From a virus, in IMG/VR virus record IMGVR_UViG_3300028800_000027, positions 1 to 41,887 of that record: a DNA stretch of 41,887 nt; one strand, given 5' to 3'. Shown here in pieces: positions 3,782 to 41,263 of the stretch (position 1 is the first letter of the stretch; each line of letters starts with the position of its first letter). The notes under the pieces are model-generated. The model did not search any database, was not told the origin of the DNA, and worked only from the letters and a program-made list of their open reading frames with translations. Both the position numbers and the translations under genes were made by a program.

Positions 3782-3806
3782 CATTTAACGCCACACACCG
3801 TTACGT
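3778..3806 (+). promoter_or_regulatory. Weak promoter candidate (TTGACA-N17-TTACGT)
   Basis: A perfect TTGACA (3778-3783) and a poor -10 (3801-3806) lie in the short gap before the primase-helicase gene. The following sequence (CGTTACGTTGC) resembles that of the candidate upstream of the terminase gene (CGTTACAGTTGC). Confidence 0.25.
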
Positions 3807-3838
3807 TGCAGCGCCTTGGCTGGGCTGTCGGAGACGCT

Positions 3839-5974
3839 ATGCTTCAATCTGCTATTGCCGACTTGCAACGAAGCGGCATTACGCCTGACGAGGCCGAGCA
3901 GGCGGGTATGTTCGACGTCCCAGACGCATCTGCCATCTATCCCGAGTTCCAAAGCGGGCCGGCGATCGTCATCCCGTACTACGACGCACACGGACAAATC
4001 GCGACGTTCGAACGCGGCGCGGAGGTGCTTCCATTCTGCCGCGTCCGCTATCTGGACCAGCCCGTAAAAGCAGGATTCATCCCGCAGAAGCCAATCCGCT
4101 ACGGCCAGCCGAAGGCGAGTGGCACCCGCGCTTACTTCCCGCCCACCGTGCCGTGGGAAGCGGTGTTAACGGACAGCACAGAGCCTGTTGTCATCACGGA
4201 GGGGGAAAAGAAATCGCTGGCTGGCGTGTTGTCGGGCTTCCCGGTCATAGCGCTGGGCGGCGTGTTCAACTTCATGGACGGCGAGGACATCCTACCGGAG
4301 CTTGACGCGGCGAAGTGGCGTGGCCGCGATGTATATATTTGCTTCGATAGCGACGCTGTTCTGAATCCGAACATCCTGGCAGCGGAGGCCCGTCTCGTCG
4401 ACGAGCTACAGCGCAAACGCGGCGCGCGGTGTTACCTGGTGCGTCTGCCGCAGGACGGCGACCGCAAGGTGGGGCTGGACGACTACCTGCTGGCGCACGG
4501 CGCCGCGGGCTTCACCAAGCTCCTACAGGATGCGCCGTCGCTGGGCGCGCTCGACGCCAAGGTGGTTGCGTTGAACAAGTCCGTGGCGTGGATAGAGCGG
4601 GAGAATTTGGTCTACGACCTTGAGACGCGCCTGTTCATCCCCAAGGACTCATTCGTCAACGGCTCGCGCTTCTCCACGCTGAAGCACATCACCGTCGGCG
4701 GCAAGCAGCGCAGCGCACCCAAGACGATCAGCGTGGCCGCGACATGGCTGACACATCCACACGCGCAGCGCTTCAGTGAGGTGCTGTTCCGCCCCGGTGA
4801 AGGCGTGACGGTGCAGGGCGATCATGGCCGGCCGGCGTTGAACATGTGGACCGGCTGGGAATCGGCTGACGGCGATGTAGAGCCATTTCTGGAACTTAGC
4901 GACTTCCTGTTTCAGAATGTAGCACCCGATAGCCGTGAACTGCCGCTCAAGCTCATGGCCTATAAGGCGCAGAACCCGGCGGAGAAAGTGCCGCTCGCGC
5001 TGGTGCTGATTGGCCCGCAGGGGTGTGGAAAGACGCTTTGGGGCGAGTGCATCCGCGATGCGTTTGCGCCGTATGGCGTCGATGTTACATCAAAAGCATT
5101 CCACTCGGAGTTCCAAGGATGGTTGGAGCGCTCGCTGATCGCGCTTATCAACGAAGCCGAGCATGAAGACATGATTCGCGGCGGCGACGTGCTCAAGTCG
5201 CTGATTTCAGATCTCCAACGCCCGATGAACGAGAAATACCGTCCGGCGCGGCAGATCAAGACCTACACCATGTACATCCTCACCTCGAACAGTCGCGCAG
5301 TGGGTGCATTCTCACCCGATGATCGGCGCATGATCGTCGTGGACTGCCCGAAGAAACGCGACTGGGCGTTTTACGATCGCATCTCGGCATGGAAGCGCAA
5401 CGGCGGCGCCAAGGCGCTGCTGGGATGGTTGCTCAACTACGACCTTAAGGGCTGGAAGCCGCCCGCCTCTGCGCCCATGACGTCTGAGAAATACATGGCC
5501 TACATGGAGTCGCTGACGCCCGTGCAGCGCCTCGCCGAGGAAATGCGTACGGCGTCCGAGAACACAATCAAGCTTTGGCTTGACCAGGCGGTCGCGTGGG
5601 CGCGCGTTGCCGAGTTGAGCAACAACGCATCGCTGGCCGCGATGGCGCGAGCGACTATTGAAGGCGTCGCCAGTATCCAGATTCGCCCATGGTACACGCC
5701 CGAAGAACTCGCGCTTATGTTCCCGTCCATTATCGAGACGCAGCTGGGCAGCAGGTATCAGCGTGGGACGCCAAGCGGGCGCATCAGCCGAGAGCTTCGT
5801 GAAGCCGGTGTTCCCTACCTGCAATGCAAGGACGATCCGCGCGGCTTCAGGTGGCACGGTGTGGTGCGCCAATACCTCGTCGTGTCTGAGTTTGATGACT
5901 GGCGCGAACCGATCACCCAGGCCGACTTCGAGCGAATGATGAAGGCGTGGCCGAAGCACGGGGCGCGGCGATGA
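3839..5974 (+). CDS. Primase-helicase (TOPRIM-like plus SF3/D5-like ATPase)
   Basis: A 711-residue replication protein. The N-terminal half has a TOPRIM/DUF3854-like core: VVITEGEKKS with the catalytic-type Glu at ~121, ALGGVFN, and VYICFDSDA with the Asp pair. The C-terminal half is a helicase ATPase: Walker A GPQGCGKT (residues ~392-399), Walker B-like LIALINEAE (~435), and sensor-like YILTSNS. It resembles the DUF5906/primase C-terminal helicases of phages and satellites. It probably unwinds the fork and makes primers for the family A polymerase at 9738. ATG 3839 has GGAG five bases upstream; an in-frame TTG at 3806 is the alternative. The stop overlaps the next start. Confidence 0.85.
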   Translation: MLQSAIADLQRSGITPDEAEQAGMFDVPDASAIYPEFQSGPAIVIPYYDAHGQIATFERGAEVLPFCRVRYLDQPVKAGFIPQKPIRYGQPKASGTRAYFPPTVPWEAVLTDSTEPVVITEGEKKSLAGVLSGFPVIALGGVFNFMDGEDILPELDAAKWRGRDVYICFDSDAVLNPNILAAEARLVDELQRKRGARCYLVRLPQDGDRKVGLDDYLLAHGAAGFTKLLQDAPSLGALDAKVVALNKSVAWIERENLVYDLETRLFIPKDSFVNGSRFSTLKHITVGGKQRSAPKTISVAATWLTHPHAQRFSEVLFRPGEGVTVQGDHGRPALNMWTGWESADGDVEPFLELSDFLFQNVAPDSRELPLKLMAYKAQNPAEKVPLALVLIGPQGCGKTLWGECIRDAFAPYGVDVTSKAFHSEFQGWLERSLIALINEAEHEDMIRGGDVLKSLISDLQRPMNEKYRPARQIKTYTMYILTSNSRAVGAFSPDDRRMIVVDCPKKRDWAFYDRISAWKRNGGAKALLGWLLNYDLKGWKPPASAPMTSEKYMAYMESLTPVQRLAEEMRTASENTIKLWLDQAVAWARVAELSNNASLAAMARATIEGVASIQIRPWYTPEELALMFPSIIETQLGSRYQRGTPSGRISRELREAGVPYLQCKDDPRGFRWHGVVRQYLVVSEFDDWREPITQADFERMMKAWPKHGARR

Positions 5975-6267
5975 CGCCCGAACGCGCCGCCGTCCTACTT
6001 GTAGTAGATCCCCGCGCAGATGCTGCGACGGTACGCACAGCCTACGCCGCGGCGGTCAAACGCGCCCACCCCGACACAGCTGCGGAAGGCACGTCGGGCG
6101 TGCCAATTCGGGATTTACAGGCGGCACGCGATTTGCTGCTTTGTGGCGTAGAGACTCAAAATAGTGCTTGCAAGCTATGTCAGGGCAGCGGTAAGGTGCG
6201 TGGCGCTATGGGGTTGCGCGATTGTGCCGCTTGTAATGGTACGGGAGATAGTTATGGACAATCTTGA
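5971..6267 (+). CDS. Mini J-domain protein with zinc finger
   Basis: A 98-residue protein combining a short J-domain, with the HPD tripeptide at residues 33-35 (VKRAHPDTA) between two helices, and one DnaJ-type zinc-binding pair, CKLCQGSG (67-74) and CAACNGTG (85-92). In DnaJ proteins HPD stimulates DnaK ATPase and the CxxCxGxG motifs bind zinc. Here both are compressed, so it could recruit host DnaK to the replication complex, as lambda P and DnaJ do at the lambda origin. That role is inference from its place directly after the primase-helicase, to which it is coupled by ATGA. Confidence 0.8.
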   Translation: MTPERAAVLLVVDPRADAATVRTAYAAAVKRAHPDTAAEGTSGVPIRDLQAARDLLLCGVETQNSACKLCQGSGKVRGAMGLRDCAACNGTGDSYGQS

Positions 6268-6652
6268 GGTTGGAGCGCCGTTGCCAAAGAGCATTGGACA
6301 GCGCGCCGATTTATACGCCGAGGTGCGCGGCCTTCGTCTCGCGATGGACAAGGAAGTCGCGGCTGTGAAGGCACGCGAAAGCGAGATTCGCGAAAGCATC
6401 ATCAACGACCTGTCGAAGTCGGACGACACAGGCGCTGCGGGACTGAAATACCGCGCGCAGATCGTTGTGAAGACGCTTCCGAAGCTCGCGGACTGGGGTG
6501 TTTTTACATCCTGGGTGCGCAAGAACGACCGATTCGACCTGATGCAGAAGCGTATCAACGAAACCGCGATCAAAGACCTTTGGGCAGAGCGCGAAAGCGT
6601 TCCGGGCGTTGAGAAAATCAACGTGCCCGACGTGTCGATCACCAAAATTTAG
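6254..6652 (+). CDS. Hypothetical early protein, 132 aa
   Basis: Starts at ATG 6254, overlapping the end of the J-domain gene, with GGGAG nine bases upstream. A helical N-terminal half (GQRADLYAEVRGLRLAMDKE, VAAVKARESEIRESIINDLS) looks like a coiled coil. A compact alpha/beta half follows (KYRAQIVVKTLPKL, WGVFTSWVRKNDRFDLMQKR). The layout is reminiscent of phage Gam-like or Siphovirus Gp157-type proteins, but I cannot assign a family. Position between primase-helicase and the next DNA-metabolism gene suggests a replication or recombination accessory role. Confidence 0.6.
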   Translation: MDNLEVGAPLPKSIGQRADLYAEVRGLRLAMDKEVAAVKARESEIRESIINDLSKSDDTGAAGLKYRAQIVVKTLPKLADWGVFTSWVRKNDRFDLMQKRINETAIKDLWAERESVPGVEKINVPDVSITKI

Positions 6653-6661: not shown

Positions 6662-7459
6662 ATGGGACAGGAAATCGTCAATTTCAACGAAGCGTGGGCC
6701 GAGCAGGCTCAGAAGTGGGCGCAGGAAGAACCTCTGAACGGTGGTACGTTCCTCTCGACGCGCGGCGGTACGCTGGCGTTCGGTGACGAACAGCTGCCGG
6801 GCAACCAGGCGGCGGTCATCATCCTGGATTCGGTGTACGAGAACACCTACTACGCCGACAAGTTCGACCCTGACGTTGCAGCCGCGCCGACGTGTTACGC
6901 CTTCGGCCGCGCCAGCGATCCCGAGGAAATGTCGCCGCATCCGTCGATGCAGAACGACGCATACTTCGTTCCACAAGCTGAGGTGTGCTCGGCTTGTCCG
7001 CATAACGAGTGGGGCAGTGCCGACAAGGGGCGCGGAAAGGCGTGTCAGAACCGCCGCCGCCTGGCGCTCATCCCGGCCGGCTTCTACGCGCCAAAGCGCG
7101 GGTCGCGCGACTTCGATCTGGAGCTTTTCGACGATCCGAAGCACTTCCAGACTGCGGACATCGCGTTCATCAAGCTGCCGGTGACGTCGGTCAAGGGCTG
7201 GTCGAAATACGTCAGCCAGTTGTCGTCCGCGATGCGGCGCCCGCCGCACGGCGTCATCACGCGGCTGTATCTCGAGCCTGACGCCAACTCGCAATACATG
7301 GTGAAGTTTGAAGCCATCGAGGAGGTGCCCGACGCGCTTGCGGCGATCGTGATGGCGCGCGCCGATGAAGCGTCGAAGGCGACGGTACAGGGCTATAAAG
7401 CTCCTGAGCCGGCGGATGCAGCGCCGCAAGGCTCGCTGCGCGGACTTCGGAGGCGCTGA
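6662..7459 (+). CDS. Candidate ssDNA-binding or replication accessory protein
   Basis: 265 residues, soluble. A cysteine cluster CSACPHNEWGSADKGRGKAC, Q in the middle of the protein could bind zinc; it is preceded by VYENTYYADKFDPDVAAAPT, CYAFGR and followed by AFIKLPVTSVKGWSKYVSQL. The C-terminal tail (EPADAAPQGSLRGLRRR) is low-complexity and basic. Similar proteins sit beside polymerase genes in other podoviruses, and I suspect single-stranded DNA binding, but no diagnostic motif proves it. An SD-like AGGAG lies seven bases before ATG 6662. Confidence 0.5.
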   Translation: MGQEIVNFNEAWAEQAQKWAQEEPLNGGTFLSTRGGTLAFGDEQLPGNQAAVIILDSVYENTYYADKFDPDVAAAPTCYAFGRASDPEEMSPHPSMQNDAYFVPQAEVCSACPHNEWGSADKGRGKACQNRRRLALIPAGFYAPKRGSRDFDLELFDDPKHFQTADIAFIKLPVTSVKGWSKYVSQLSSAMRRPPHGVITRLYLEPDANSQYMVKFEAIEEVPDALAAIVMARADEASKATVQGYKAPEPADAAPQGSLRGLRRR

Positions 7460-7493: not shown

Positions 7494-7574
7494 ATGAACC
7501 GGTGGGTAGTTGGCGCGATGGTTGTCTGTTTGGGCCTGTGGCTCGCCATAGGGCTTGTGGTGGAGGTGGTGTGA
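7494..7574 (+). CDS. Tiny membrane protein, 26 aa
   Basis: MNRWVVGAMVVCLGLWLAIG, LVVEVV: a single transmembrane helix starting seven bases after a good AGGAGG. The stop overlaps the GTG start of the HTH gene at 7571. The ribosome-binding site and coupling argue for translation; the function is unknown. Confidence 0.5.
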   Translation: MNRWVVGAMVVCLGLWLAIGLVVEVV

Positions 7575-7876
7575 CCAAGCTGTTGACGCCCGTGCAAGCC
7601 GCCGAACAACTGGGTTGCTCCAAGAAAACACTGCTTGAGCACGTCCACGCCGGCGAAATACGCTACATCCACATCGGACACGGGACCAAAAAACCGCGCC
7701 GCATGTTCACAGACGAGGATATTCTGGCTTTCGTTGAAAGCCAGGCACGGAGAGACAACCCATGTCCGTCTACAAGCCGAAGGGTTCGCCGTTCTACCAC
7801 TACGACTTCCAGTGGAGAGGTCGTCGCTTTTGTGGCTCAACTGCGAAAACAAAGCGCGCAGATGCGGCCAAGGTAG
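7571..7876 (+). CDS. Excisionase-like HTH protein
   Basis: 101 residues from a GTG overlapping the previous stop. The first ~60 residues form a MerR/excisionase-type winged helix: LLTPVQAAEQLGCSKKTLLE, HVHAGEIRYIHIG, RRMFTDEDILAFVES. The remaining ~40 residues overlap the integrase gene by 115 bp in another frame and are Ser/Thr/Arg-rich, so perhaps only the N-terminal part is under selection. Overlapping xis/int genes are classical in lambda. By position it should be the recombination directionality factor; it might also regulate transcription. Confidence 0.7.
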   Translation: MTKLLTPVQAAEQLGCSKKTLLEHVHAGEIRYIHIGHGTKKPRRMFTDEDILAFVESQARRDNPCPSTSRRVRRSTTTTSSGEVVAFVAQLRKQSAQMRPR

Positions 7877-8880
7877 AGCAGGTGCAGCGTGAGCGGGCGC
7901 GGCTGGAAATTAACGCAGAGAACGCCGTTACTGGGCAGCTTACGCTAGAAAATGCAGCTGGGCGCTACCATCAAGAGGTGGGCAAATACCTCGCGAGCGC
8001 GGATGACGCGACGCGAGATTTCGCGCGGATGATTCTTTTCTTCGGTGGTGACAAGCCTCTGGCGGAGATCACCAACGCCGAAGTTGCGCGCTTGGTTAAT
8101 TGGCGCCGCGGTCATCATGTGGTCCGCAACCCGAAAGCAAAGCTCAAAGACTGTCCGATCGTTTCAAACGCGACAGTCAACCGCTCGACCGTCGAACTGC
8201 TCAAGCGGCTTTTTCGGCGGGCCAAGGCGGCGTGGGGAGCGTCCCTACCTAATGAGCCGACATGGAAGACCCACCGGCTTTCTGAGCCGCAGGAGCGCGT
8301 GCGCGAGCTTATGAACGACGAGCCGGAAAAACTGGAGTTGGCAACGCGAGCCGACTACGCCCCGTTCTTCGCTTTTGCCAAGGCGTCGGGCCTACGCTTG
8401 GAAGAATGCCTGCTTAAGTGGTCGGAGGTGGACTGGCGCACGGCGCGGATCATCAAGGAGGGTAAGGGAGGTAAGCGCCTCACAGCTCCCATCACGTCAG
8501 AGATCCGGGCGATCCTGGCGCCGCTGGTAGGGCACCACCCGGTACACGTCTTCACTTATGTCGCGCGCCGCACGCGCGAGGGCCGCGTCAAGGGCCAGCG
8601 ATACCCTTTGACCTACTCGGGCGTGAAGACGGCGTGGCGGCGGTTGCGCAAGCGCGCGGGAGTCTCAGACTTCCGTTTCCATGACTTCCGCCACGACCTC
8701 GGGACGAAACTGCTGCGCGAGACGGGGAACCTCAAACTCGTGCAGAAGGCGCTGAACCATGCCGACATCCGCACCACGACCAAATATGCCCACGTCCTCG
8801 ATACTGAGGTGGCGTCGGCGCTGGAGCGCGTCACAGAGTCCCGAACAAAGTCCCGAAACGAACGTAAGAAGGTGGGTTAA
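7762..8880 (+). CDS. int: Tyrosine integrase
   Basis: 372 residues. The C-terminal catalytic domain carries the full set: Arg212 (SGLRLEE), a beta-hairpin Lys in KGGKRL (235-239), His307-x-x-Arg310 (FHDFRH), His333 (LNHAD) and the nucleophile Tyr342 (TKYAHV). The N terminus is an arm-type DNA-binding segment, then a SAM-like core-binding domain (~60-160). It should insert the phage at tRNA-Pro: the attP core lies only 41 bp after its stop. It overlaps the HTH gene upstream. It lies inside the replication operon rather than in a separate lysogeny module. Confidence 0.96.
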   Translation: MSVYKPKGSPFYHYDFQWRGRRFCGSTAKTKRADAAKVEQVQRERARLEINAENAVTGQLTLENAAGRYHQEVGKYLASADDATRDFARMILFFGGDKPLAEITNAEVARLVNWRRGHHVVRNPKAKLKDCPIVSNATVNRSTVELLKRLFRRAKAAWGASLPNEPTWKTHRLSEPQERVRELMNDEPEKLELATRADYAPFFAFAKASGLRLEECLLKWSEVDWRTARIIKEGKGGKRLTAPITSEIRAILAPLVGHHPVHVFTYVARRTREGRVKGQRYPLTYSGVKTAWRRLRKRAGVSDFRFHDFRHDLGTKLLRETGNLKLVQKALNHADIRTTTKYAHVLDTEVASALERVTESRTKSRNERKKVG

Positions 8881-9357
8881 ATGGTTGAAACTGTAGACAG
8901 TTCTGCTATGACGCAGACCGGCTTTGGGAGCAGAGGGTCGCGTGTTCGAATCACGCCGCCCCGACCAACAACCAACAATAATATCAGCGGCTTAGGTAGG
9001 TGGGCGCGGGGTGTACTTATCCGTCAGATAGGAACGGAAAAGCACCAAAACGACGTTGTCGTCACCAAAAGTCCCGAAAAAGTCCCGGAGCCCAATCCCG
9101 ATTCGTTCCCCGCGAGCGCAGCAGCCGTAGGGGCGGCGCTGCCCGGCCCATTGGTATGCGCGCTCTCCCCTGACCCGGTGCAGGCCGAGCGCCAGCGCAT
9201 CTTCCTCGATTACTACAGCTGGTCGATGTGGGCGCAGGACAAGGTCCGCGCCGGGCTGTTCGTCACCCTCGCCGACGCGCAGCGGATGGACGCCGCCAAC
9301 CGCCGCAATGAGGAACGCGACCGCTCGCAGGCCAGGGTGGGCTACGGCGATGAGTGA
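8881..9357 (+). CDS. ORF crossing attP; C-terminal part likely real
   Basis: Open for 158 codons from an ATG directly after the int stop (AAGG nine bases upstream). Its first ~30 residues are translated attP, including GFGSRGSRVRITPPRP, so the N terminus would change on integration. The last ~65 residues (DPVQAERQRIFLDYYSWSMW, AQDKVRAGLFVTLADAQRMD) look like a genuine helical phage protein; a TTG near 9151 is one possible internal start. The stop overlaps the next gene. Function unknown; treat the start as unresolved. Confidence 0.5.
   Translation: MVETVDSSAMTQTGFGSRGSRVRITPPRPTTNNNISGLGRWARGVLIRQIGTEKHQNDVVVTKSPEKVPEPNPDSFPASAAAVGAALPGPLVCALSPDPVQAERQRIFLDYYSWSMWAQDKVRAGLFVTLADAQRMDAANRRNEERDRSQARVGYGDE
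8921..8967 (+). other. attP: attP core: 3' half of tRNA-Pro(UGG)
   Basis: Reads as a tRNA 3' half: anticodon loop TTTGGGA (UGG) at 8923-8929, 3' anticodon stem GCAGA, variable loop GGGTC, T stem GCGTG/CACGC around TTCGAAT (8940-8956), acceptor strand CGCCCCG (8957-8963), A, CCA. No matching 5' acceptor or D-arm is present, so it is not a complete tRNA. Adjacent to int, this is the usual form of a tRNA-targeting attP, which restores the tRNA on integration. An acceptor CGGGGCG is expected in the host gene. Confidence 0.9.
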
Positions 9358-9532
9358 CTGGCGCGACCAGCTTCCCAAAGTGGAGGCAGAGTTCGAAGGT
9401 CGCGTGTCTCCTGGCCTAACGCGCCAGCAGGCGAGGTGGCTCAAGCGCCGCATCGCGCGGGCGGAGCACAACGAAACCAAGCAGGCGAAGCGCAAGCCGA
9501 GGCGGCGTACAGCGAGAAGTCCCACACAATGA
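9350..9532 (+). CDS. Small basic protein, 60 aa
   Basis: MSDWRDQLPKVEAEFEGRVS then a strongly basic tail (RWLKRRIARAEH, KQAKRKPRRRTARS). Such composition suggests nucleic-acid binding, but no fold is recognisable. It overlaps its neighbours by a few bases at both ends, in the tightly coupled run leading into the DNA polymerase. Confidence 0.5.
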   Translation: MSDWRDQLPKVEAEFEGRVSPGLTRQQARWLKRRIARAEHNETKQAKRKPRRRTARSPTQ

Positions 9533-9741
9533 CTCTTTTTGAACTACCTACAGCGCCTAAAGAGTGGAATCTACCACAGGTCGAAACTCTAACGTGGCGA
9601 GCGGGCAATTACGCAGGCCACGAGGTCGTTGTAGCTCACTGGCCGAACGGCGACCATGCAGTGTACCTCAGTGCCGGACGACCAGAAGACGCCGTGCTGG
9701 AAAGCATGCTTCTGGTGCTCAATGCGGCGCGCACACAATGA
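9529..9741 (+). CDS. Hypothetical protein, 70 aa
   Basis: Overlaps the preceding stop (ATGA) and the polymerase start. The sequence (GNYAGHEVVVAHWPNGDHAV, YLSAGRPEDAVLESMLLVLN) suggests a small alpha/beta protein with two beta strands and a C-terminal helix. Not recognised. Its position suggests co-expression with the polymerase. Confidence 0.55.
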   Translation: MTLFELPTAPKEWNLPQVETLTWRAGNYAGHEVVVAHWPNGDHAVYLSAGRPEDAVLESMLLVLNAARTQ

Positions 9742-11624
9742 GAGTACCCGACTGCATCGTCATCGACTTTGAGACGTATCCGATCAAGAATCGGCCGACG
9801 TATCCGCCCAAGCCTGTCGGCGTCGCAATCGCCTGGCCGGGCGAGCGGCCGTTCTACATGGCGTTCGGCCATCCGACGGGCAACAACTGCTCGGCGGGCG
9901 ACGCCATGGCGGAGCTTGAGCGTTGCTGGGCCTCCGGCCTGCCGATCCTCTGCCACCACGCCAAGTTCGACCTCTGCGTGGCCTGCGAGGGCGGAGGGTT
10001 GCCGGAGCTACCGTGGCAGCGTGTCCACGACACGATGTACCTCGCGTTCCTGTTCGACCCCCACGCCCGCAAGCTGGACCTTAAGGGCTTGGCAGCGGAG
10101 GTGCTGCACCAGCCGCCTGACGAGCGCGACGAGCTTGACGAGTGGATCATGGCGCACGGCGCGCAGCTGCTCGAGGCGTATCCGTGGAACAAAAGTGCGC
10201 CAGGGCAGCGCAAGATCACGAAGCGGCAGTGCGGCGCGTGGATCTTCGCGACGCCTGGCGACATAGCGGGACGCTACGCCTGTGGCGACATAACGCGCAC
10301 GCTGGACCTGTTCAACGAGCTTTGGCCGATCATCCAGGAAAATGGCATGGGCGCGGCTTACGATCGCGAGCGCCAACTTATGCCGATCCTGATGGAGAAC
10401 GAGCGCGTCGGGATGCGCGTCGATCTCAACGGCTTGGACGAGCAGGTCGCTTATTACGATCAGGCGATGGCGTACGCCGAGACCTGGCTGCGCGAGACGC
10501 TGGGCGCGAGCGGGCTGAACTTCGACGCCGACGCAGATGTGGCGAACGTCCTGCTTCAGCGTGGGATCGTGCCGGAGGGCAACTGGACGCTGACCGAGAG
10601 CAACCAGCTTTCGATGAGCAAGGAAAATCTGCTGCCCGAACACTTCACCGGTCCCGGCGGAGACATGGTGGCCGCGGCACTCGGCTACCGCAACCGGCTC
10701 AAGACCTGTCTCGAGATGTTCATGCGCCCGTGGCTGACGCAGGCGCGCGACAACGGCGGCTACATCTGCACGCACTGGAACCAGACGCGCGGCGGCGATG
10801 GCGGTACACGTACCGGGCGCCCGAGTACGATGGACCCTAACTTCCTGAACATCAGCAAGGACTTCGACGGCCGCGACGACGGCTACCGGCACCCGGACTT
10901 CCTTGAGCTTCTGCCTCTGCCGCTGGTGCGTAAGTTCGTGCTGCCCGACGAGGGCGAGGTGTGGCTGCACCGGGACTTCAACAGCCAGGAGCTTCGCATC
11001 TTCGCCCACTTCGAACAGGGCGATCTCTGGCAGCAGTACCACAACGATCCGCGCATCGACGTCCACGCCTTCGTGGGCAAAGAGCTTATGGCGGTCGCGC
11101 AGCGCGAGATTGAGCGCACCAAGGTCAAGGTGATGAACTTCCAGTCGCTGTATGGCGGCGGCGCGCCTGCGCTACAGCGTAAGCTGCGCTGTTCGTTGGC
11201 GGAGGCGAAGGAGCTTAAGGCGTTCCACAACAAGGCGTTACCTGGCCGTGTCGTCCTGAACGAAGAAATCAAGCGCATCGTGAAGCGTGGCGAGCCGATC
11301 CGCACATGGGGCGGACGCCTCTACTTCCCCGAGCCGGTGGGCAAGGACGGTCGCGACAAGATCTACAAGCTCATCAACTACGAGATTCAGGGCAGCGCGG
11401 CCGATTACACCAAGCAGACGATCATCGAGTGGCACGCGGCGAAGGTGAGGTCGCGGTTCCTCGTGACCGTCTACGACGAAAACAACATTTCCGCGCTGCC
11501 CGAGCACGCCGATCGCGAAATGAAAATCTTAGCCGAAGTGATGGAGGCACCACGCCTCACAGTCCCGATGCTGTCCGACGGCAAGCGTGGCTCAACATGG
11601 GGAGACCTGAAGAAATGCGCGTGA
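9738..11624 (+). CDS. Family A DNA polymerase with 3'-5' exonuclease
   Basis: 628 residues. Exonuclease: ExoI Asp10-x-Glu12 (IDFETY), ExoII HAKFD (Asp78, with His where Asn is usual), ExoIII Tyr180-x3-Asp184. Polymerase: motif A Asp413...Glu418-Leu-Arg420 (RDFNSQELR), motif B Arg460-x3-Lys464-x3-Phe468-x3-Tyr472-Gly, motif C Val-Tyr-Asp580-Glu581. Motif C normally reads His-Asp-Glu, so Tyr is a notable change. There is no 5' nuclease domain, as in T7-type enzymes. It should be the replicative polymerase and partner of the primase-helicase. ATG 9738 overlaps the previous stop. It is the first large gene after attP. Confidence 0.95.
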   Translation: MRVPDCIVIDFETYPIKNRPTYPPKPVGVAIAWPGERPFYMAFGHPTGNNCSAGDAMAELERCWASGLPILCHHAKFDLCVACEGGGLPELPWQRVHDTMYLAFLFDPHARKLDLKGLAAEVLHQPPDERDELDEWIMAHGAQLLEAYPWNKSAPGQRKITKRQCGAWIFATPGDIAGRYACGDITRTLDLFNELWPIIQENGMGAAYDRERQLMPILMENERVGMRVDLNGLDEQVAYYDQAMAYAETWLRETLGASGLNFDADADVANVLLQRGIVPEGNWTLTESNQLSMSKENLLPEHFTGPGGDMVAAALGYRNRLKTCLEMFMRPWLTQARDNGGYICTHWNQTRGGDGGTRTGRPSTMDPNFLNISKDFDGRDDGYRHPDFLELLPLPLVRKFVLPDEGEVWLHRDFNSQELRIFAHFEQGDLWQQYHNDPRIDVHAFVGKELMAVAQREIERTKVKVMNFQSLYGGGAPALQRKLRCSLAEAKELKAFHNKALPGRVVLNEEIKRIVKRGEPIRTWGGRLYFPEPVGKDGRDKIYKLINYEIQGSAADYTKQTIIEWHAAKVRSRFLVTVYDENNISALPEHADREMKILAEVMEAPRLTVPMLSDGKRGSTWGDLKKCA

Positions 11625-12280
11625 CCGCATGGAGCTACAGCCGCTACGCGCTGTACGAACTCTGCCCGCTGAAGTTCAAGCTGAAGCACATCGACAAGAT
11701 ACCGGAGCCCGGTTCGCCGGCGATGGAGCGCGGCGACCGGATACACAAGGGCGTTGCGGCTTATGTCACCGGCACGTCCCAAGAGCCTCCGCAGGAGGCA
11801 GTCGCGCACTCATTCCCCGCCAAGCTGATCGAAGAACTGCGCGGCTTCCCCGACAAGGTGGTGGAGCAGCAATGGGGCTTCACCGCGTCGTGGGGGCCGA
11901 CCGGCTGGTTCGGGAAGGCGACGTGGTTTCGCAACATTCTCGACGCAGCGGCGCTCTATGACGACATGACGGGCGACGTAATAGATTGGAAAACTGGTAA
12001 AAAATACGGCTCGAACGCAGAGCAGATGGAGTTAAACGCGCTCGCGTTCATGTGTCAGTACAAGCTCACGCAGTCTGTGACGACGCGGATGGTGTACTTG
12101 GACAATGGTGAAGAAGACACCGCGGATTTCCCGGTCGCGGACAAAGAAAAGCTGAAGGAGAAGTGGCAACAAAAGGTCGTTCCGATGTTCAGCGACACGA
12201 TCTTCGCACCACGACCTAACGACAAGTGCCGATTCTGCGCTTATTCGCGATCAAACCTTAACAAATGCCGGTTCGGGTAG
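11615..12280 (+). CDS. Cas4/AddB-like PD-(D/E)XK nuclease with Fe-S cysteines
   Basis: 221 residues, overlapping the polymerase end by 10 bp. The N terminus (WSYSRYALYELCPLKFKLKH) and ERGDRIHKG are typical of RecB/Cas4/AddB nucleases. The active site is Asp110 (NILDAAA), Asp124-x-Lys126 (VIDWKTGK) and Gln137. Cys17 with Cys205, Cys208 and Cys218 reproduces the split four-cysteine Fe-S cluster pattern of AddB/Cas4. The family acts as 5'-3' ssDNA exonucleases or in end processing. Here it probably serves recombination or replication-fork processing; there is no CRISPR locus in the window. Confidence 0.88.
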   Translation: MRVTAWSYSRYALYELCPLKFKLKHIDKIPEPGSPAMERGDRIHKGVAAYVTGTSQEPPQEAVAHSFPAKLIEELRGFPDKVVEQQWGFTASWGPTGWFGKATWFRNILDAAALYDDMTGDVIDWKTGKKYGSNAEQMELNALAFMCQYKLTQSVTTRMVYLDNGEEDTADFPVADKEKLKEKWQQKVVPMFSDTIFAPRPNDKCRFCAYSRSNLNKCRFG

Positions 12281-12358: not shown

Positions 12359-12727
12359 ATGGCAAAGGCGAAAGTGCGTCAGAAGGGCGCACGATTGACC
12401 GAGCGCACGAAGGGCGAGACCGAGAAACCGGTGAAGCTGCTTCAACTCATCGCAACGATGGGGATTACTCGGGCAGCACGGCAACTGGGTATCAGCACAA
12501 CAACCATCCACAAAGCGCGGCGACACAACGTCGTATCGCGCGTCATCGAAATAGCCGCCGCCAACGTACTGCGCGACTTGGCGGGCAAGGCGGACGGCGA
12601 CACTCCGAAGCCTGCTGTCAAGTCGGACGACGCGACGATCTCATATCTGATGATCGTGGCGCGCTCGAAAGCCGGCGTGGTGGAGCAGTTCGCGAAAGCA
12701 ATAAACGCCACTCTCGTCGAGACTTGA
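12359..12727 (+). CDS. HTH regulator candidate, 122 aa
   Basis: A basic N terminus (KAKVRQKGARLTERTK), then a helix-turn-helix: LLQLIATMGITRAARQLGIS, TTTIHKARR, similar to Fis-type or transposase-like HTHs. The C-terminal half (ISYLMIVARSKAGVVEQFAK) is helical and may dimerise. It has its own promoter candidate and a good AGGAG seven bases upstream. With no CI-like gene found, this is a leading candidate for a lysis-lysogeny or early-to-late regulator, but nothing in the sequence proves that. Confidence 0.65.
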   Translation: MAKAKVRQKGARLTERTKGETEKPVKLLQLIATMGITRAARQLGISTTTIHKARRHNVVSRVIEIAAANVLRDLAGKADGDTPKPAVKSDDATISYLMIVARSKAGVVEQFAKAINATLVET

Positions 12728-12757: not shown

Positions 12758-13072
12758 ATGGCAGCAGAAGCAACCCTGCAACGCAAGACCATCGCCCACG
12801 CCCGACGCTTGGGAATGGAGGTCATCCGCATGGCCTTCGCGCCCGGCGTGTCGGCGGGCTGGCCGGATGCTCTGTTTCTAGTCCCCGGCGGACGACCGTT
12901 GTTCGTCGAGTTCAAAGCGCCAGGCCGCAAGCCGTCGCCGCTACAGCAGCACCGCATCAGCTATTTGTGCGGGGCGGGCTATGACGTTCGTGTCGCAGAT
13001 AACTTCGACACGGCGCGCCAAGCCCTCGCATCAGCCGTGGAACGCGCACGCCTATCAGCGCCGCGCGTCTGA
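12758..13072 (+). CDS. VRR-NUC domain nuclease
   Basis: 104 residues covering the whole VRR-NUC fold: GWPDALFLV with Asp37, LFVEFKAPG with Glu51-x-Lys53, Gln63 in PLQQHR, and GYDVRVADNFDTA. In the family this is a PD-(D/E)XK nuclease acting on branched DNA; stand-alone phage copies are usually placed next to a SNF2 helicase, as here. ATG 12758 has no clear ribosome-binding site; an inverted repeat (atagcg..cgctat) precedes it. The 3' end overlaps the helicase gene by 92 bp. Confidence 0.88.
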   Translation: MAAEATLQRKTIAHARRLGMEVIRMAFAPGVSAGWPDALFLVPGGRPLFVEFKAPGRKPSPLQQHRISYLCGAGYDVRVADNFDTARQALASAVERARLSAPRV

Positions 13073-15017
13073 TTTCCTCGTTGAGCACGGCGCGGCCGCG
13101 CTGTTCTTGGACCCTGGCCTCGGTAAGACGTCGATCGTGCTGGATGCGTTCGGCCGTCTGCTCGAGCGCGGCGTCGCGCGCAAGATGCTCGTCATTGCGC
13201 CGCTGCGCGTCTGCCAGACGGTGTGGAGACAGGAGGGACAGAAGTGGACCGAGTTCCGCGATCTCCGATTCAGCCTGCTACACGGGGCCAAGAAGGCCGA
13301 TCGGCTCAAGGACGACGCAGATGTGTGGCTCATCAACCCTGAGGGTGTGCAGTGGCTGGGCGAGCGGTTCTTCGGCCGCGCGCTACCGTTCGATACGGTC
13401 GTCATCGATGAACTGACGAAGTTCAAGAATGCCCGCGCCGCCAGACACAAGGCGCTTCGCCCGCGGCTCAAGAACGTTGCGCGGCGCTGGGGGCTCACTG
13501 GCACGCCGGCGCCGAACGGTTACATGGACTTATTCGGTCAGATGTTGGTGCTCGACGACGGCGCGGCGCTGGGCAAATACATCACGCATTACCGCGATGC
13601 CTACTTCCAGGTGGACTTCAACGGCTTCGACTACAACCTCCAGCCCGGCGCCGAGCGCCGCATTGAAGCGAAGATCAAGCCCTATGTTCTCCGCATGAGC
13701 GCGGAGGATTACCTGGAGCTGCCGCCGCTGGTCGACGACATCCGCGAACTGGACATTGAGCCTGCCGCGCGCGCCGTTTATTCCAAGATGAAGAAGGACA
13801 TGCTCGCCGAGTTGCCTGAAGGCGTGGTGACCGGCGCGAACGCAGCCGCCGTCTACAGCAAGCTCAAGCAGATGGCGAATGGTGCTGTCTACATGAACGA
13901 CGACAAGCACACCGTATCGCCGATCCATAACACCAAGCTCGACGCACTCGACGAGCTGGTGGAGGAACTGGCCGGGCAGCAGCTGTTGATCGCCTACGAG
14001 TTCAACCACGACATCGAGCGCCTGCGTGCTCACTTCGGCGACCGGCTCGCTTATATCGGCAAGGGCGTCGGTGAGAAGCAGACGCTCGAGATTCAGGAGC
14101 GCTGGAACCGTGGCGAAATCCAGCTGCTCGCCTGTCACCCGGCCAGCGCCGGTCATGGCTTGAACCTGCAATACAGCAGCTGCGCCCACATTTGCTGGCT
14201 GTCGCCGATCTGGGATCTCGAGCTATACGACCAGTTCCGCAAGCGCGTGTGGAGACAGGGAAACGAAGCGCTGCGTGTCATTAACCACATACTTGTGGTG
14301 CGTGACACCATAGACGAGCTTGCGTTACAAGCTCTACGCGATAAAGATACGACGCAGGGACGCTTATTGCGAAGCCTGAACAACGAAATTCTCCGTGACG
14401 GAGAGGCCCAGGCCACCGGGGAGACGGCGGCAAGTGAGACGAGGAAGACAGACATGACCGTAGCAAAATTATCGCGTCAGGCTGACGCGGCCGAAGCGCC
14501 GCGTCGTGTCGTGCCGAAGGGGTGGGGTAACGCAGCCTCCGCCGCATCGCCGGAGGCGGAGCACGCCGCCACTGCGGCGCCGGTGAAGCCGAAGGGATGG
14601 GGCCGACCGGCGCAGACCGACATCGAAGATGTTGCGCCAACCGGGCAGCGTGAGCGCATCGTCACGCAGTTGCGCGGCGCTCCCTTGCAGGCAGCCCCTG
14701 CGGAGGCCGAGGAGGCCGAGGAGGCCGAAGAAGTGCCGGCGTCTGTGAAGGCACGCAGCATGTTCTCCGCGGGCGTGCGGCAGCAGATGGAGGCTGCGGC
14801 GGGCGAGGGCGCTGAGGTTGCTGAGGTCGAAACGCAGCCCGCTACAGCTAGCGAAGTCAAAACACCTCGGCGTTCGCGAGCGTCACAGACCGAGCCGGTG
14901 AGCGGTGCCCAGTTGCTTGACAAGGGTGACACACTCCCGCCGATGGCGCTGGACTACGATCAACTCGGCCGCTCGGTGGCGAAGCATCTGCTGGGCGCGC
15001 TCGCCGCGGCGCTCTAA
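12981..15017 (+). CDS. SNF2-type DEAD/DEAH helicase with extra C-terminal region
   Basis: 678 residues. Motif I DPGLGKT (44-50), motif II Asp143-Glu144-Leu-Thr, motif III LTGTPAPNG (172-180), and the C-terminal helicase lobe ending in SAGHGLNLQY and QFRKRVWRQGN. It probably remodels DNA during replication or recombination and pairs with the VRR-NUC nuclease. After ~residue 480 comes an Ala/Glu-rich, low-complexity extension with two PKGWG motifs and a final helix. An internal ATG (14454) with GAGGA upstream could give a separate 187-residue protein. It is the last gene before the terminator at 15038. Confidence 0.9.
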   Translation: MTFVSQITSTRRAKPSHQPWNAHAYQRRASDFLVEHGAAALFLDPGLGKTSIVLDAFGRLLERGVARKMLVIAPLRVCQTVWRQEGQKWTEFRDLRFSLLHGAKKADRLKDDADVWLINPEGVQWLGERFFGRALPFDTVVIDELTKFKNARAARHKALRPRLKNVARRWGLTGTPAPNGYMDLFGQMLVLDDGAALGKYITHYRDAYFQVDFNGFDYNLQPGAERRIEAKIKPYVLRMSAEDYLELPPLVDDIRELDIEPAARAVYSKMKKDMLAELPEGVVTGANAAAVYSKLKQMANGAVYMNDDKHTVSPIHNTKLDALDELVEELAGQQLLIAYEFNHDIERLRAHFGDRLAYIGKGVGEKQTLEIQERWNRGEIQLLACHPASAGHGLNLQYSSCAHICWLSPIWDLELYDQFRKRVWRQGNEALRVINHILVVRDTIDELALQALRDKDTTQGRLLRSLNNEILRDGEAQATGETAASETRKTDMTVAKLSRQADAAEAPRRVVPKGWGNAASAASPEAEHAATAAPVKPKGWGRPAQTDIEDVAPTGQRERIVTQLRGAPLQAAPAEAEEAEEAEEVPASVKARSMFSAGVRQQMEAAAGEGAEVAEVETQPATASEVKTPRRSRASQTEPVSGAQLLDKGDTLPPMALDYDQLGRSVAKHLLGALAAAL

Positions 15018-15024: not shown

Positions 15025-15053
15025 TTGACGAAAGTGAGGCGTAGCGACATAGT
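15025..15053 (+). promoter_or_regulatory. Promoter candidate for lysis genes, inside the terminator
   Basis: TTGACG (15025-15030), a 17-bp spacer and CATAGT (15048-15053); the -10 falls in the loop of the terminator hairpin. If real, initiation near 15060 would produce a transcript without the terminator stem and serve holin and spanin expression. Confidence 0.35.
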
Positions 15054-15080: not shown

Positions 15081-15317
15081 ATGGTTTGGCCGTTCAAAGG
15101 TCAGAGGGTAACCGACTGGCGGGACAGCTGGCGCTGGTTGTCAGTTCGCTTCATCGCGGGCGGCGCTGCTCTCCAGGTGGCTCTGCTTACCTTGGGTCAC
15201 GACGTTCGGGACTACCTGCCGGACTGGTTCACGCGCGTCGTCGCCATTGCGATCTTCGCGGGCGCGTTCCTCGGGCGCATCACCGAGCAAAAGCCAAAGG
15301 ACACGTCGAATGGGTAA
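15081..15317 (+). CDS. Holin (DUF7940-like)
   Basis: 78 residues. A charged N terminus with DWRDSWRWLSVRF, then two hydrophobic stretches (IAGGAALQVALLTLG; VVAIAIFAGAFLG) and a basic tail (RITEQKPKDTSNG). This is the layout of small phage holins of the DUF7940 type, always next to spanins. It should permeabilise the inner membrane to release the endolysin encoded on the other strand (16591). ATG 15081 is preferred over TTG 15078. The 3' end overlaps the i-spanin start. Confidence 0.75.
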   Translation: MVWPFKGQRVTDWRDSWRWLSVRFIAGGAALQVALLTLGHDVRDYLPDWFTRVVAIAIFAGAFLGRITEQKPKDTSNG

Positions 15318-15903
15318 GTTGCTAGGAAGCCTTCTAGGCGGTGTCTGGGGCTATGTAGCCGCGGCAGGGCTGGCAGCGATCGTCGCCGGCGGCGCGGCCG
15401 TGTGGACGACACACGCCGTCGACAAGGGCGTCTACCTGCCCCAAGTCGCTGCTAAGCAGAAGCAGTTCGACGATTTCGTGCTTGCATCTGTAGAGGCTGA
15501 GAAAGCTGCTGTCAGCGCCGCCTTGGCCGCACAGAAGAAGCAGGCCGATCTCGCGCAGCAACAGGCTGTCGTGGCCGCGCAGGCGCGTCAAAAGGAAGAA
15601 GATGCGCGCCACAAGATCTACACGGAGGTCGACCACTATGTCTCGGATAGCTCTACTTGCATCACTTTTGGCCTTGTGCGCGTGCTCAACGCCGCCGCGG
15701 CCGGCGTCCACGACCCTTCTAGTCTCGGGATTGCCCCCGGCCAACCTGATGACGCCTGCGCAGGCGTTGCATGGCGTCCGTTTGCCCGCGACATCGCCGA
15801 CGACTACGCCACCGCGCGAGAAAACGCCGACCAGTTGAATCGGCTGGAGGCCTCTGTCCTCGAACTCCACGCCGCCGCCAAGTCACAGGTAACTTCTCCT
15901 TAA
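15310..15903 (+). CDS. i-spanin (Rz-like)
   Basis: 197 residues. One N-terminal transmembrane segment (VAAAGLAAIVAGGAAVW) is followed by a long Ala/Gln/Lys-rich coiled coil (residues ~50-100) and a C-terminal helical region. That is the topology of inner-membrane spanins. The o-spanin is nested within it in another frame, which is the strongest support for the call. Together they should fuse inner and outer membranes at the last step of Gram-negative lysis. The ATG at 15310 overlaps the holin's end. Confidence 0.82.
   Translation: MGKLLGSLLGGVWGYVAAAGLAAIVAGGAAVWTTHAVDKGVYLPQVAAKQKQFDDFVLASVEAEKAAVSAALAAQKKQADLAQQQAVVAAQARQKEEDARHKIYTEVDHYVSDSSTCITFGLVRVLNAAAAGVHDPSSLGIAPGQPDDACAGVAWRPFARDIADDYATARENADQLNRLEASVLELHAAAKSQVTSP
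15638..15838 (+). CDS. o-spanin (Rz1-like lipoprotein), nested in Rz
   Basis: 66 residues, wholly inside the i-spanin gene in a different frame, with GGAGG nine bases before the ATG. MSRIALLASLLALCACSTPP is a lipoprotein signal with lipobox LLALC or ALCAC, followed by the proline-rich mature part typical of Rz1. It should be lipidated, sorted to the outer membrane and bind the i-spanin C terminus. Confidence 0.85.
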   Translation: MSRIALLASLLALCACSTPPRPASTTLLVSGLPPANLMTPAQALHGVRLPATSPTTTPPREKTPTS

Positions 15904-16590: not shown

Positions 16591-17010
16591 TCACGCCTTC
16601 GGACCCAGCTTGTAGAAGACATGGTGTCCGATCACGACGGACGCTTGGCCTGACGTAGACCTGTCCCACGAGGCGTGCGTGCCGATGACCTTGTAGTGGT
16701 CCGCACCGGCCGTCGGATCCGGCTCTATGCCGCGCGCGCAGTGGTCCACGATCGCGCCGATTGATTGGTAAGCGTCGTCGCTCTCACACAGCTTTGCAAT
16801 CTGCGCGGCGTTGGGATCGCTGTGGTTCCAGCAGGAGAACTGGTAGGGCTTGTGGCAGACGTCATAAGGCGTAGAGCCCCACCATGCAGGCTGCTCTGCG
16901 CGGTTCAGTATGACGTGCGCAACGGCGATCTGCCCCGCCATCTTCTCGCCACGAGATTCGCCCCAGACGGTGCGGATCATGGCGTCGCGGTCACGAGGGG
17001 AGAGGTTCAT
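16591..17010 (-). CDS. SleB-type endolysin (cell wall hydrolase)
   Basis: 139 residues. It matches the SleB/CwlJ hydrolase domain: RTVWGESRGE with the catalytic-type Glu18, then GQIAVAHVILNR, WWGSTPYDVC, FSCWN and a C-terminal HYKVIGTHASWD...HVFYKLG. The family cleaves peptidoglycan as lytic transglycosylase or amidase and is a common endolysin in alphaproteobacterial phages. There is no signal peptide, so it depends on a holin. ATG 17010 has AAGGA eight bases upstream, favoured over upstream in-frame codons. It overlaps the preceding gene by 20 bp and is the last gene of the late operon. Confidence 0.88.
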   Translation of the reverse strand: MNLSPRDRDAMIRTVWGESRGEKMAGQIAVAHVILNRAEQPAWWGSTPYDVCHKPYQFSCWNHSDPNAAQIAKLCESDDAYQSIGAIVDHCARGIEPDPTAGADHYKVIGTHASWDRSTSGQASVVIGHHVFYKLGPKA

Positions 17011-17944
17011 TGGTCCGTTCCTTGCTCTTTTCCTCGAGCAGTTGAAGTTGTGCCAGCGCGCGCCACGCAACGGCGCAGGCGTGAAACTCCCCCGTTTCCG
17101 GGTCAATCACATCCGGCTCAAGCTGGTGGCGGACGATGCAGTCGCCGTGGTCTGTCGATTTACCGCGCGCCCAGTGCAGCGGTTGGCCGGGGTTGTGCTT
17201 TTCGTTTCCCTTGAACGACAGCCGAGCGACGGCCGCGAGCGCGTCTGGGAAATAACGTAGAACGCCGCTGTAGATCGGCGTTTCCTTTCGGCGCTTCGAC
17301 TCCGCCGGGTCGAACCCAACGGGCTTTAAATCGGGCGACATGTTTGAGCGATGTCCCATGAGCAGTATTTGTTGAGATGGTCGGCGATTGCTGTGCGGCG
17401 GGTCATTCGGAGTGGTGCAGTTGTTGTGATTTTCCGCGCTCAGGCCCCACCCCTCCATGTACTTGGAAAGATTCTCAAACTTGAGCACCGTGGTTCCGAG
17501 GTCGGGGCGCAGATAGTCGAACTGGCTGATTTTATTTTCCGGCGTCGGGTTTATCCGCGACAGCACAGGCCAATAAGCGGCGTCGCCGTTGAGGCTGTGT
17601 GGCGTGGTGAACGGCTCTGCGTTGTGCAGCAGCCATTGCTCAAATGAGCAGGACGCCTGCTTGCGGATGCGCCGAGCATCCAGACTTGCACCTCCGCCTT
17701 GTACCTGCGCGCCGCCTCCAAAGTCGCGGAGAAACTTGTAGAGGCTCCACAGCCGCCAGAGAGGATGGCGTACAAAGCCCACGCGCCGCCATCGGTCGTA
17801 GCCACGCGGGCACCCGTCCGCTTCCATGTGTCGGTAGAGCAGCATGGACTTGGGATAGACGCGGCGCAGTTCGCGGTAGAGCGTACCGGACCCCGTGCGA
17901 GGCACGAGAATGAACACCGTCTCCAGTTCGGGAACGATGATCAT
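16991..17944 (-). CDS. Sulfotransferase-like / DUF5664 (dATP/dGTP diphosphohydrolase-like) fusion
   Basis: 317 residues with two unlike modules. The N-terminal ~190 residues look like a sulfotransferase: the PAPS-loop-like VFILVPRTGSGTLYREL (10-26) and the 3'-phosphate-type GFVRHPLWRLWSLYKF (56-71). The C-terminal ~110 residues match DUF5664 (related to MazZ nucleotide pyrophosphohydrolases): SKRRKETPIYSGVLRYFPDA, LAAVARLSFKGNEKHNPGQ, HGDCIVRHQL, HACAVAWRALAQLQLLEE. Internal ATGs at the junction (MGHRSN, MSPDL) could let the second module be made alone. Targets are unknown: capsid or host surface sulfation, and nucleotide-pool editing, respectively, would be guesses. Confidence 0.65.
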   Translation of the reverse strand: MIIVPELETVFILVPRTGSGTLYRELRRVYPKSMLLYRHMEADGCPRGYDRWRRVGFVRHPLWRLWSLYKFLRDFGGGAQVQGGGASLDARRIRKQASCSFEQWLLHNAEPFTTPHSLNGDAAYWPVLSRINPTPENKISQFDYLRPDLGTTVLKFENLSKYMEGWGLSAENHNNCTTPNDPPHSNRRPSQQILLMGHRSNMSPDLKPVGFDPAESKRRKETPIYSGVLRYFPDALAAVARLSFKGNEKHNPGQPLHWARGKSTDHGDCIVRHQLEPDVIDPETGEFHACAVAWRALAQLQLLEEKSKERTNEPLPS

Positions 17945-18228
17945 CAGTCTTCCTCAGCTTCGTCGCTCTCTGCGTCGCCAAGCGCGTGCATGTATGTGTC
18001 CAGCATCGCGTCGGCGGTCTTGCGCTTCTCCGGGTCCATCTTGCGGAGCTTGATCGCCTTGCGCATGGTGGGAACGTCGAAGCCGACGCTCTTGGCCTCG
18101 CCGAACACTTCCTTGATGTTTTCGGCGAGACCCTGCTTCTCCTCCTCGAGCCGCTCGACGCGCTCGACGAAGCTGACCAGTTGCTGCTTGGCGTTGTCGC
18201 CAACGACGAAATCTAAATCCTGTGACAT
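17944..18228 (-). CDS. GapR-like DUF2312 nucleoid protein
   Basis: 94 residues matching the DUF2312/GapR family nearly end to end: LVSFVERVERLEEEKQGLAE, NIKEVFGEAKSVGFDVPTMR, KAIKLRKMDPEKR and a C-terminal helix. GapR of Caulobacter binds overtwisted AT-rich DNA ahead of forks and stimulates topoisomerases. The family is essentially alphaproteobacterial, a strong host indicator. In a phage it could support replication or packaging, or alter host chromosome organisation. AGGAG lies 10 bases upstream; the stop overlaps the next start. Confidence 0.92.
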   Translation of the reverse strand: MSQDLDFVVGDNAKQQLVSFVERVERLEEEKQGLAENIKEVFGEAKSVGFDVPTMRKAIKLRKMDPEKRKTADAMLDTYMHALGDAESDEAEED

Positions 18229-39295: not shown

Positions 39296-39608
39296 GGGCG
39301 CTTCGTGGCGTGGTGCTCCGCGATGGGTGTGTAATGATGCTACTACGTTTCCTGAGATATGATAGCTGCTTCGAAATTTTGATATTTATTCCGAGAGCGC
39401 CCCTTACGACGCAGCCCCGCCCCTCACCACGAACCACCCCCGGCCCCCTCGAACGTCGTCACGGTAAAGGCGGGTTAACCTTTCCAACGAAGTAACCACG
39501 TCGCGCAGCACGCGGGCAGGCGCGTTGCCTGCGCATTTGGATTGCGTCGAAACGAAATGGATTGAATCAATGGGCGAAAGGATTTGTTAAGTAACACAGT
39601 GACTTAGT

Positions 39609-39625
39609 GTAGCGTAGCGACATAG
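39609..39625 (+). repeat. 17-bp repeat copy 1 (gtagcgtagcgacatag)
   Basis: Identical to 40460-40476, and 14 of its bases recur at 15039-15052. A related gcgacatagcac is on the minus strand near 37470. This copy is directly followed by a strong hairpin. Confidence 0.85.
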
Positions 39626-39658
39626 CACGGCGTAACGTAGCACCACGTTGCGCCGTGC
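39625..39658 (+). promoter_or_regulatory. Strong hairpin upstream of 67-aa gene
   Basis: 14-bp arms gcacggcgtaacgt / acgttgcgccgtgc (one G-U pair) with loop agcacc. There is no T-run, so it is not a standard terminator; it could be an attenuator, antiterminator site or structured 5' leader. Confidence 0.65.
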
Positions 39659-39694
39659 CCGTGGTGGTGCCGGCGCCAGGTGACGGAGGATGTA

Positions 39695-39898
39695 ATGCTC
39701 TATGAAATCAATGGCTTAGATGCCAAGGTGCGCGGTGTCGTGGCAGCTGCGGCGGCGCGGAAGGGCTTGTTGCGCAGCGATCGCGGGGGCGAAGTGGGGA
39801 GATATGATAGCATTGTTGAGGGCGAAGGGGCCAAGACGCCTGAGTGCGACTGGGCGTCGTTTCGTCGTTACCTCGACTGGCTGAACGAGTACCGATAG
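39695..39898 (+). CDS. Small protein, 67 aa, in regulatory region
   Basis: ATG 39695 has GGAGG five bases upstream. The protein (MLYEINGLDAKVRGVVAAAA; ECDWASFRRYLDWLNEYR) is not recognised; a helix and an aromatic C terminus are visible. An ATATGATAGCATTGTTGAG copy falls within the gene and nearly matches 40018-40036, so the gene overlaps the repeat family. It could be a small regulator. Confidence 0.5.
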   Translation: MLYEINGLDAKVRGVVAAAAARKGLLRSDRGGEVGRYDSIVEGEGAKTPECDWASFRRYLDWLNEYR

Positions 39899-39943
39899 GC
39901 CGGAGGCGCTACAATATCTGCGCAACGAAGCAACGTTGGAGAA

Positions 39944-40090
39944 TGCTATCATATTTAAACATTATGATAGCAGGGTCGCGTATACGCTTCTAAGATATGA
40001 ACAATAATAATATATATATATAATAGCATTGTTGAGCTAGAAGAAACGGTTTTACCCTCCAGCTATCATAATGTTAAAATATAATAGCAC
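39944..40090. other. AT-rich core with repeat elements; candidate origin
   Basis: A strongly AT-rich stretch in a GC-rich genome, including an alternating TA run (40009-40022). It contains inverted 14-bp arms aacattatgatagc (39958-39971) and gctatcataatgtt (40062-40075), and further ATATGATAGC-like elements. The combination of iterated short elements and an easily melted core is what an origin or a multi-operator control region looks like; which one is undetermined. Confidence 0.5.
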
Positions 40091-40093
40091 TAG

Positions 40094-40115
40094 AAGCCGG
40101 CATTTCCGGGCTTTT
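40094..40115 (+). terminator. Weak terminator candidate
   Basis: Stem aagccgg/ccgggctt with one bulged base, followed by TTTT (40112-40115). It would stop plus-strand transcription leaving the AT-rich core. It also overlaps the stop of the minus-strand gene at 40114. Confidence 0.35.
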
Positions 40116-40326: not shown

Positions 40327-40459
40327 TTGAGATCCTCCACCGGCCAGCTTAGCAGCCAGGCCCTAACATTGTCCTACCGGCTGAAACACAAAATTAACCA
40401 GCGCTGCAACATCGCGTTGAAATATGATAGCACCCTCTTGCGTGTCACCACGCCACGGA

Positions 40460-41249: not shown

Positions 41250-41263
41250 CCCGGGAGACACAC

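Follow-up and report, generated by a model that had tools for sequence, protein, structure and literature searches.

Does integration at an attachment site that lies within an early operon silence the genes beyond it? The question is raised by a window of 41,887 nucleotides (the whole stretch of viral DNA that was analysed, IMG/VR record IMGVR_UViG_3300028800_000027), for which the first-pass annotation had proposed that integration physically breaks the lytic operon and acts as a genetic switch. Here, we have identified the attP with its arm-type sites, the insertion of the cassette that carries it and the linkage of the operon around it (Table 1). The locus is a natural case of an integration cassette that sits within a replication operon, in a phage lineage that otherwise has almost no integrases. 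It asks whether integration alone, without a dedicated repressor of the replication genes, could be enough to silence a phage, and whether this could be one route by which lytic lineages turn temperate. Since two close relatives have integrases outside the operon, comparison makes the question testable.

Table 1. Features of the attP locus, the early operon and the control region, with positions in the 41,887-nucleotide window.
Feature	Position	Strand	Remarks
Primase-helicase, VapE/DUF5906-like	3806–5974	+	Pfam/PHROGs; upstream operon half
Gam6164, conserved replication-operon gene	6203–6652	+	PHROG 13900; conserved synteny
orf6662, conserved replication-operon gene	6662–7459	+	Upstream of pol, co-directional, 82/82 relatives
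xis, excisionase-like HTH_17	7571–7876	+	PF12728 E=2e-9; PHROG excisionase; overlaps int
int, tyrosine integrase, 372 aa	7762–8880	+	PF00589 E=9e-28, residues 195–347
P-arm, two tandem arm-type sites	8835–8858	+	In int 3' end; position same in relatives
ORF through the core	8881–9357	+	No family match
attP core, 47 bp	8921–8967	+	Identical to tRNA-Pro(TGG) 3' part including CCA
P'-arm, two tandem arm-type sites	9068–9090	+	∼100 bp past core
Two small overlapping ORFs, 9350–9532 and 9529–9741	9350–9741	+	Bridge to pol; without family match
pol, family A DNA polymerase	9738–11624	+	PF00476 E=1e-36
recB, PD-(D/E)XK (RecB-like) nuclease	11615–12280	+	PF12705 E=2e-17
Small protein, weak helix-turn-helix signal	12359–12727	+	Sub-threshold Pfam HTH matches
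VRR-NUC nuclease	12758–13072	+	PF08774
SNF2-type DNA helicase	12981–15017	+	PHROG 62 E=2e-137; PF00176
Promoter-like TTGACG-N17-CATAGT	15025–15053	+	Near copy of GTAGCGTAGCGACATAG; precedes DUF7940/spanin genes
Control region, flanked by divergent late (−) and early (+) genes	39350–40431	.	9 WATATRATAGC copies, AT-rich core
Repeat GTAGCGTAGCGACATAG	40460–40476	+	Just upstream of first early gene (40490)

Early genes run rightward from ∼40.5 kb across the junction of the record to 15.9 kb, and late genes, with the large terminase, a PHROG-156 portal and the endolysin among them, run leftward in 16.6–39.4 kb. We take the portal of PHROG 156 to be a P22-type podovirus assignment. Every gene called between 480 and the end of the helicase is encoded on the + strand; 3' of the helicase, this strand has only a DUF7940 gene, a spanin-like gene (15247–15903) and one ORF without assignment. 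The first-pass annotation had put lysis genes on the early side, which was mistaken for the endolysin (16591–17106), a − strand gene grouped with the late genes. The two ends of the record share 114 bp, an overlap that falls in a 27-bp tandem repeat. The circular junction is spanned by a + strand ORF (41027–41887 and 1–477) that encodes a DUF7666 domain together with IGSSGNYAQ-type repeats in tandem, and the assembly closure falls inside such a repeat.

The attP core occurs once in the genome (chance expectation 0.00) and starts 40 bp past the end of int. When 385 alphaproteobacterial genomes were scanned for 30 nt of the core, exact, five matched. In all five, the full 47 nt are the 3' part of a tRNA-Pro(TGG) gene, and the identity ends sharply at both edges. 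Joining the host 5' part to the phage core gave a complete tRNA-Pro by ARAGORN, and the opposite junction scored as no tRNA. In four of these genomes (L112, L114–L116), as judged by reading the sequence, the tRNA is followed by a gene beginning ARIYKPAKTAMQSGKANTRKWVLE or near it.

Arm-type repeats, AAGTCCCGAA, flank the core on both sides (8836 and 8848; 9069 and 9080), and the P'-arm pair begins 189 bp past int. With one mismatch allowed, the genome has eight copies against 1.9 expected, four of which are at the attP. In L118, L119, L120, L125, L141 and L143, int likewise carries an AGTCCCGRA pair within or at its 3' end, and in L156 and L160 one site near the end of int is followed by a pair a little over 200 bp beyond. 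In the integrase, residues R212, H307, R310, H333 and Y342 are invariant in an alignment of relatives; these are the catalytic residues. The locus thus has the Phage_integrase domain, the tRNA-rebuilding core and the two-sided arms of a tRNA 3'-end tyrosine-recombinase module, and 8921–8967, taken with int and the flanking repeats, is a credible attP. A perfect dyad, AACTGTAGACAGTT, lies at 8888–8901, between int and the core.

Comparison of related integrases indicates that the block of xis, int, arms and core is a portable module, since arm pairs and tRNA-Pro-type cores recur with them. Homologues of xis precede int in relatives, and a tRNA-Pro-type fragment follows int in the same direction in L117, L118 and L004 (integrase identities of 65%, 59% and 54%). 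The replication operon was found in none of 79 integrase relatives, over the DNA that their records cover; in other phages, related integrase modules adjoin accessory genes. The rhizobial phage phiLM21 was reported to integrate in tRNA-Pro(GGG) (PMC12429752). Its integrase is 53% identical, with an excisionase gene ahead of it, the same arm sequence (as a pair ∼100 bp away from where the core ends in CCA) and a tRNA-Pro target. In contrast, the rest of its genome is unrelated, its int is at the genome edge and its core is opposite in orientation to int.

Scans with the polymerase retrieved about 90 viral and MAG contigs and the Pseudoxanthomonas phage PW916. In all 82 contigs carrying both genes, orf6662 is upstream of pol on the same strand, and 68 of them keep the order Gam-orf6662-pol-recB-helicase. 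The orf6662-pol interval ranges from 9 to 3583 bp across relatives and is filled by variable small genes in the contigs that were read (L014, L017, L031 and L033–L035). Because it varies in length and in small-gene content, this interval behaves as an accessory slot. No operon-relative contig has an integrase there. Among 50 operon records, only L032 (around 7923) and L034 (around 16858) have a Phage_integrase domain (PF00589), on the − strand beyond the helicase and the spanin-like gene, and 48 have none. In both, int adjoins a tRNA-Thr(GGT)-like fragment, GGTAAGGGATAGGTCGTGAGTTCGATTCTCACCTACGGCACCA, outside the operon, so integration at that site would leave the operon uncut; this core was absent from 115 alphaproteobacterial genomes scanned. 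An int inside the operon is thus specific to the present phage among those examined. Since all 82 contigs have orf6662 ahead of pol and none has an int separating the two, the xis-int-attP block looks like a cassette inserted into a large, nearly integrase-free replication lineage. PW916, a distant operon relative assigned to the Mesyanzhinovviridae, shares the order primase, Gam-like, orf6662, pol, RecB, helicase. In a survey of that family, correctly classified members were without an integrase (PMC11946847), and the presence of one sets the present phage apart from Mesyanzhinovviridae-like operons, as does its PHROG-156 portal.

Could the int-core segment be foreign to the operon, brought next to it by metagenome misassembly or left behind when a stray attR end was captured? 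Closure of the record relied on a 27-bp tandem repeat, and the exact junction downstream of the attP had no further copy in viral contigs. We rejected a captured attR end because the core has arm sites to its left and right, where such an end would have host DNA. Moreover, coding frames cross both edges of the cassette with overlapping starts and stops, GC content is uniform, and the ORF right after the cassette (8881–9357) is related to a small operon gene that occupies the corresponding slot in L033 and matches the C-terminal part only (45% over a short stretch). An artefact of this kind is therefore very improbable. The real start of this ORF is probably downstream of the P'-arm.

Neighbouring genes in the stretch that begins with int and ends with recB either abut or overlap (int/orf8881, 0 bp; orf8881/9350, −8; 9350/9529, −4; 9529/pol, −4; pol/recB, −10), and for this reason co-transcription in the circle is very probable. 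In the interval that separates the core from pol, there is no + strand terminator-like site and no promoter-like site above background, by consensus scans that are weak for alphaproteobacterial phages. The stretches tested within 8968–9640 have no unusual fold: as structured RNA or terminator they fold no better than shuffles. A weak promoter-like TTGAAA-N16-TATGAC (8885–8912; 9/12) points toward pol, and since it is on the int side of the core, integration would separate it from pol too. The attP-pol interval shares ten words with the control region, against 1–13 for other operon intervals. The early promoter alone would presumably serve pol.

Further downstream the situation is different. 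A promoter-like TTGACA at 12296 is a candidate for the helicase half. The repeat that precedes the first early gene has a second exact copy at 39609 and a two-mismatch copy at 15036; up to three mismatches, the genome has four matches against 0.11 expected. The helicase and lysis genes could be served independently by the candidate promoters at 12296 and 15025. These candidates therefore limit to pol and recB the claim of the first-pass annotation that polymerase, nuclease, helicase and lysis genes would all be cut off. It had named promoters between the attP and 12.3 kb as a point to check, and just downstream of the attP none was recognisable. The main elements of its layout stood, with the 47-bp match, the arms and the overlapping genes found here in support: a tRNA-Pro attP lies between int and pol in a co-directional early operon, and pol and recB would come directly behind a restored tRNA-Pro, as the hybrid junction is a tRNA-Pro by ARAGORN. 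Gene order in the 82 relatives shows that the linkage which integration would break is ordinarily preserved.

How the cassette could affect the phage is suggested by the following model. An alphaproteobacterial cassette of excisionase, tyrosine integrase and tRNA-Pro attP would have landed in the orf6662-pol slot. In the circular phage, a single early transcript would start in the control region at 39.4–40.5 kb and run through int and the attP into pol and recB. Integration, which we presume to take place, would by crossover at the core join the 5' part of the host tRNA-Pro to pol, and the control region, the upstream genes, xis and int would stay at the far prophage end, transcribing outward via attR. 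Pol and recB would have no lytic promoter in the integrated state and would regain it after excision by Xis and Int, as in Tn916. We tentatively favour the proposal that, through the position of the cassette, the early promoter can drive pol and recB only when the phage DNA is excised, and rate it slightly short of an even chance.

In Tn916, integration parts the replication and transfer genes from their promoter, and excision restores read-through of the attachment site (PMC9956884, citing Celli and Trieu-Cuot 1998). The element has an insulating terminator against host promoters, and an antiterminator (PMC11658703). In the present phage, gene order and packing would fit an attP placed between a putative promoter and the replication genes in a single direction of transcription, and the one candidate control array is upstream. 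It differs from Tn916 in being a phage, not a conjugative element, and in that neither an insulating terminator nor an antiterminator was recognised. A stricter analogy, in which only the excised circle would allow the lytic promoter to reach the polymerase and nuclease genes, so that excision would have to precede their production and lysogeny would need no repressor acting on them, we consider doubtful. Nothing that resembles a terminator insulates pol from tRNA-Pro read-through, and as integrase modules are found beside accessory genes elsewhere, the placement may be neutral. We infer that the split has regulatory value and is not a by-product of the landing of the cassette, but as an on/off switch it is unproven.

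The present arrangement was said in the first-pass annotation to differ from that of mycobacteriophages, and this is upheld. In phage BPs the attP lies inside the repressor gene, which integration truncates and so activates (PMC4557955). In both phages the position of the attP makes integration change gene expression (in the present one, as proposed here), but in the present phage it is between int and the replication genes, no repressor was identified, and the ORF through the core matches no family. The novelty of the layout is less than was first thought, as Tn916 and the T7-like phages precede it. P-SSP7 and S-TIP37 have an attP downstream of int that matches a host tRNA, and both integrate at tRNA-Leu (PMC8776855). 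In LUZ100, int precedes the RNA polymerase gene, with a terminator right after int and a phage promoter of its own before the polymerase gene (PMC10134795). The present phage is like P-SSP7, S-TIP37, HTVC019P and LUZ100 in having, in an otherwise lytic-type genome, an int near the gene on which the remainder of the cycle depends (in LUZ100, that for RNA polymerase). Unlike it, these T7-like phages encode their own RNA polymerase and have different replication genes. The terminator and promoter of LUZ100 imply that layouts with int before a polymerase need not be switches. Neither element is recognisable in the present phage.

The T7-like cyanophages are also a precedent for a phage that is essentially lytic, in which int and attP work, integration is rare, unstable and outside lysogeny, and the operon is split only incidentally. 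With S-TIP37, stable lysogens were not obtained and a repressor homologue was not found (PMC8776855), and integration of this type would explain the present phage as well. The near absence of integrases from the replication lineage and from correctly classified members of the family to which PW916 is assigned fits this explanation, as does the lack of a recognised repressor family and of prophages. A search of 84,980 species genomes with the polymerase profile gave five contigs, none with an integrase, and short-pattern scans of species genomes and viral contigs found no integrated copy with attL and attR; a search for the integrase in the order of one tRNA-matching genome covered only three genomes and was uninformative. 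The prophages of this type that the first-pass annotation had proposed to look for in alphaproteobacterial genomes were thus missing from these collections. The absence of prophages is weak evidence, however, as the phage is known from one record only and the scans use short patterns. Moreover, the phage keeps an excisionase-like gene before int and has a palindromic array that resembles operators, which speaks for excision and repression being regulated. We regard the essentially lytic explanation as somewhat unlikely.

That array leads to another explanation, a conventional temperate phage. The motif WATATRATAGC has nine matches in the genome against 0.29 expected, all within 39.35–40.43 kb, and two 27-bp dyads of the form GCTATCAT...ATRATAGC (39945–39971 and 40062–40088) surround an AT-rich run. 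These repeats are candidates for operators, promoters or origin iterons. Because the array is palindromic and operator-like, a repressor that we did not recognise may act on it and silence the early promoter. Splitting of the operon would then add nothing: the early promoter would be off anyway, and the pol half would be silent or have a repressed promoter of its own. In favour of such a repressor, this region has ORFs without assignment (39680–39898), and the protein encoded at 12359–12727 has a weak helix-turn-helix signal. None of the ORFs scanned matched a CI-like repressor family, in agreement with the first-pass annotation. The motif is confined to the control region, which would leave the pol half without an operator, and a replication origin or a set of promoters would account for the array just as well. 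We consider the conventional explanation improbable, and retain as our tentative preference the proposal that early-promoter expression of pol and recB depends on excision.

Two further observations concern the contigs compared here. A GapR-like DNA-binding protein is encoded at 17944–18228 on the − strand (PF10073, E=4e-30), and by eye it resembles a protein that L014 and L017 encode in their orf6662-pol interval. Three further viral contigs, L109, L110 and L111, have a nearly identical tRNA-Pro(TGG) core. L109 runs on into a gene like the one that follows the tRNA in the bacterial genomes. Repeats of GTGTTTGCA lie near the core in L110 and L111, not in L109, and L110 and L111 suggest that a different integrase family acts at the same tRNA-Pro site.
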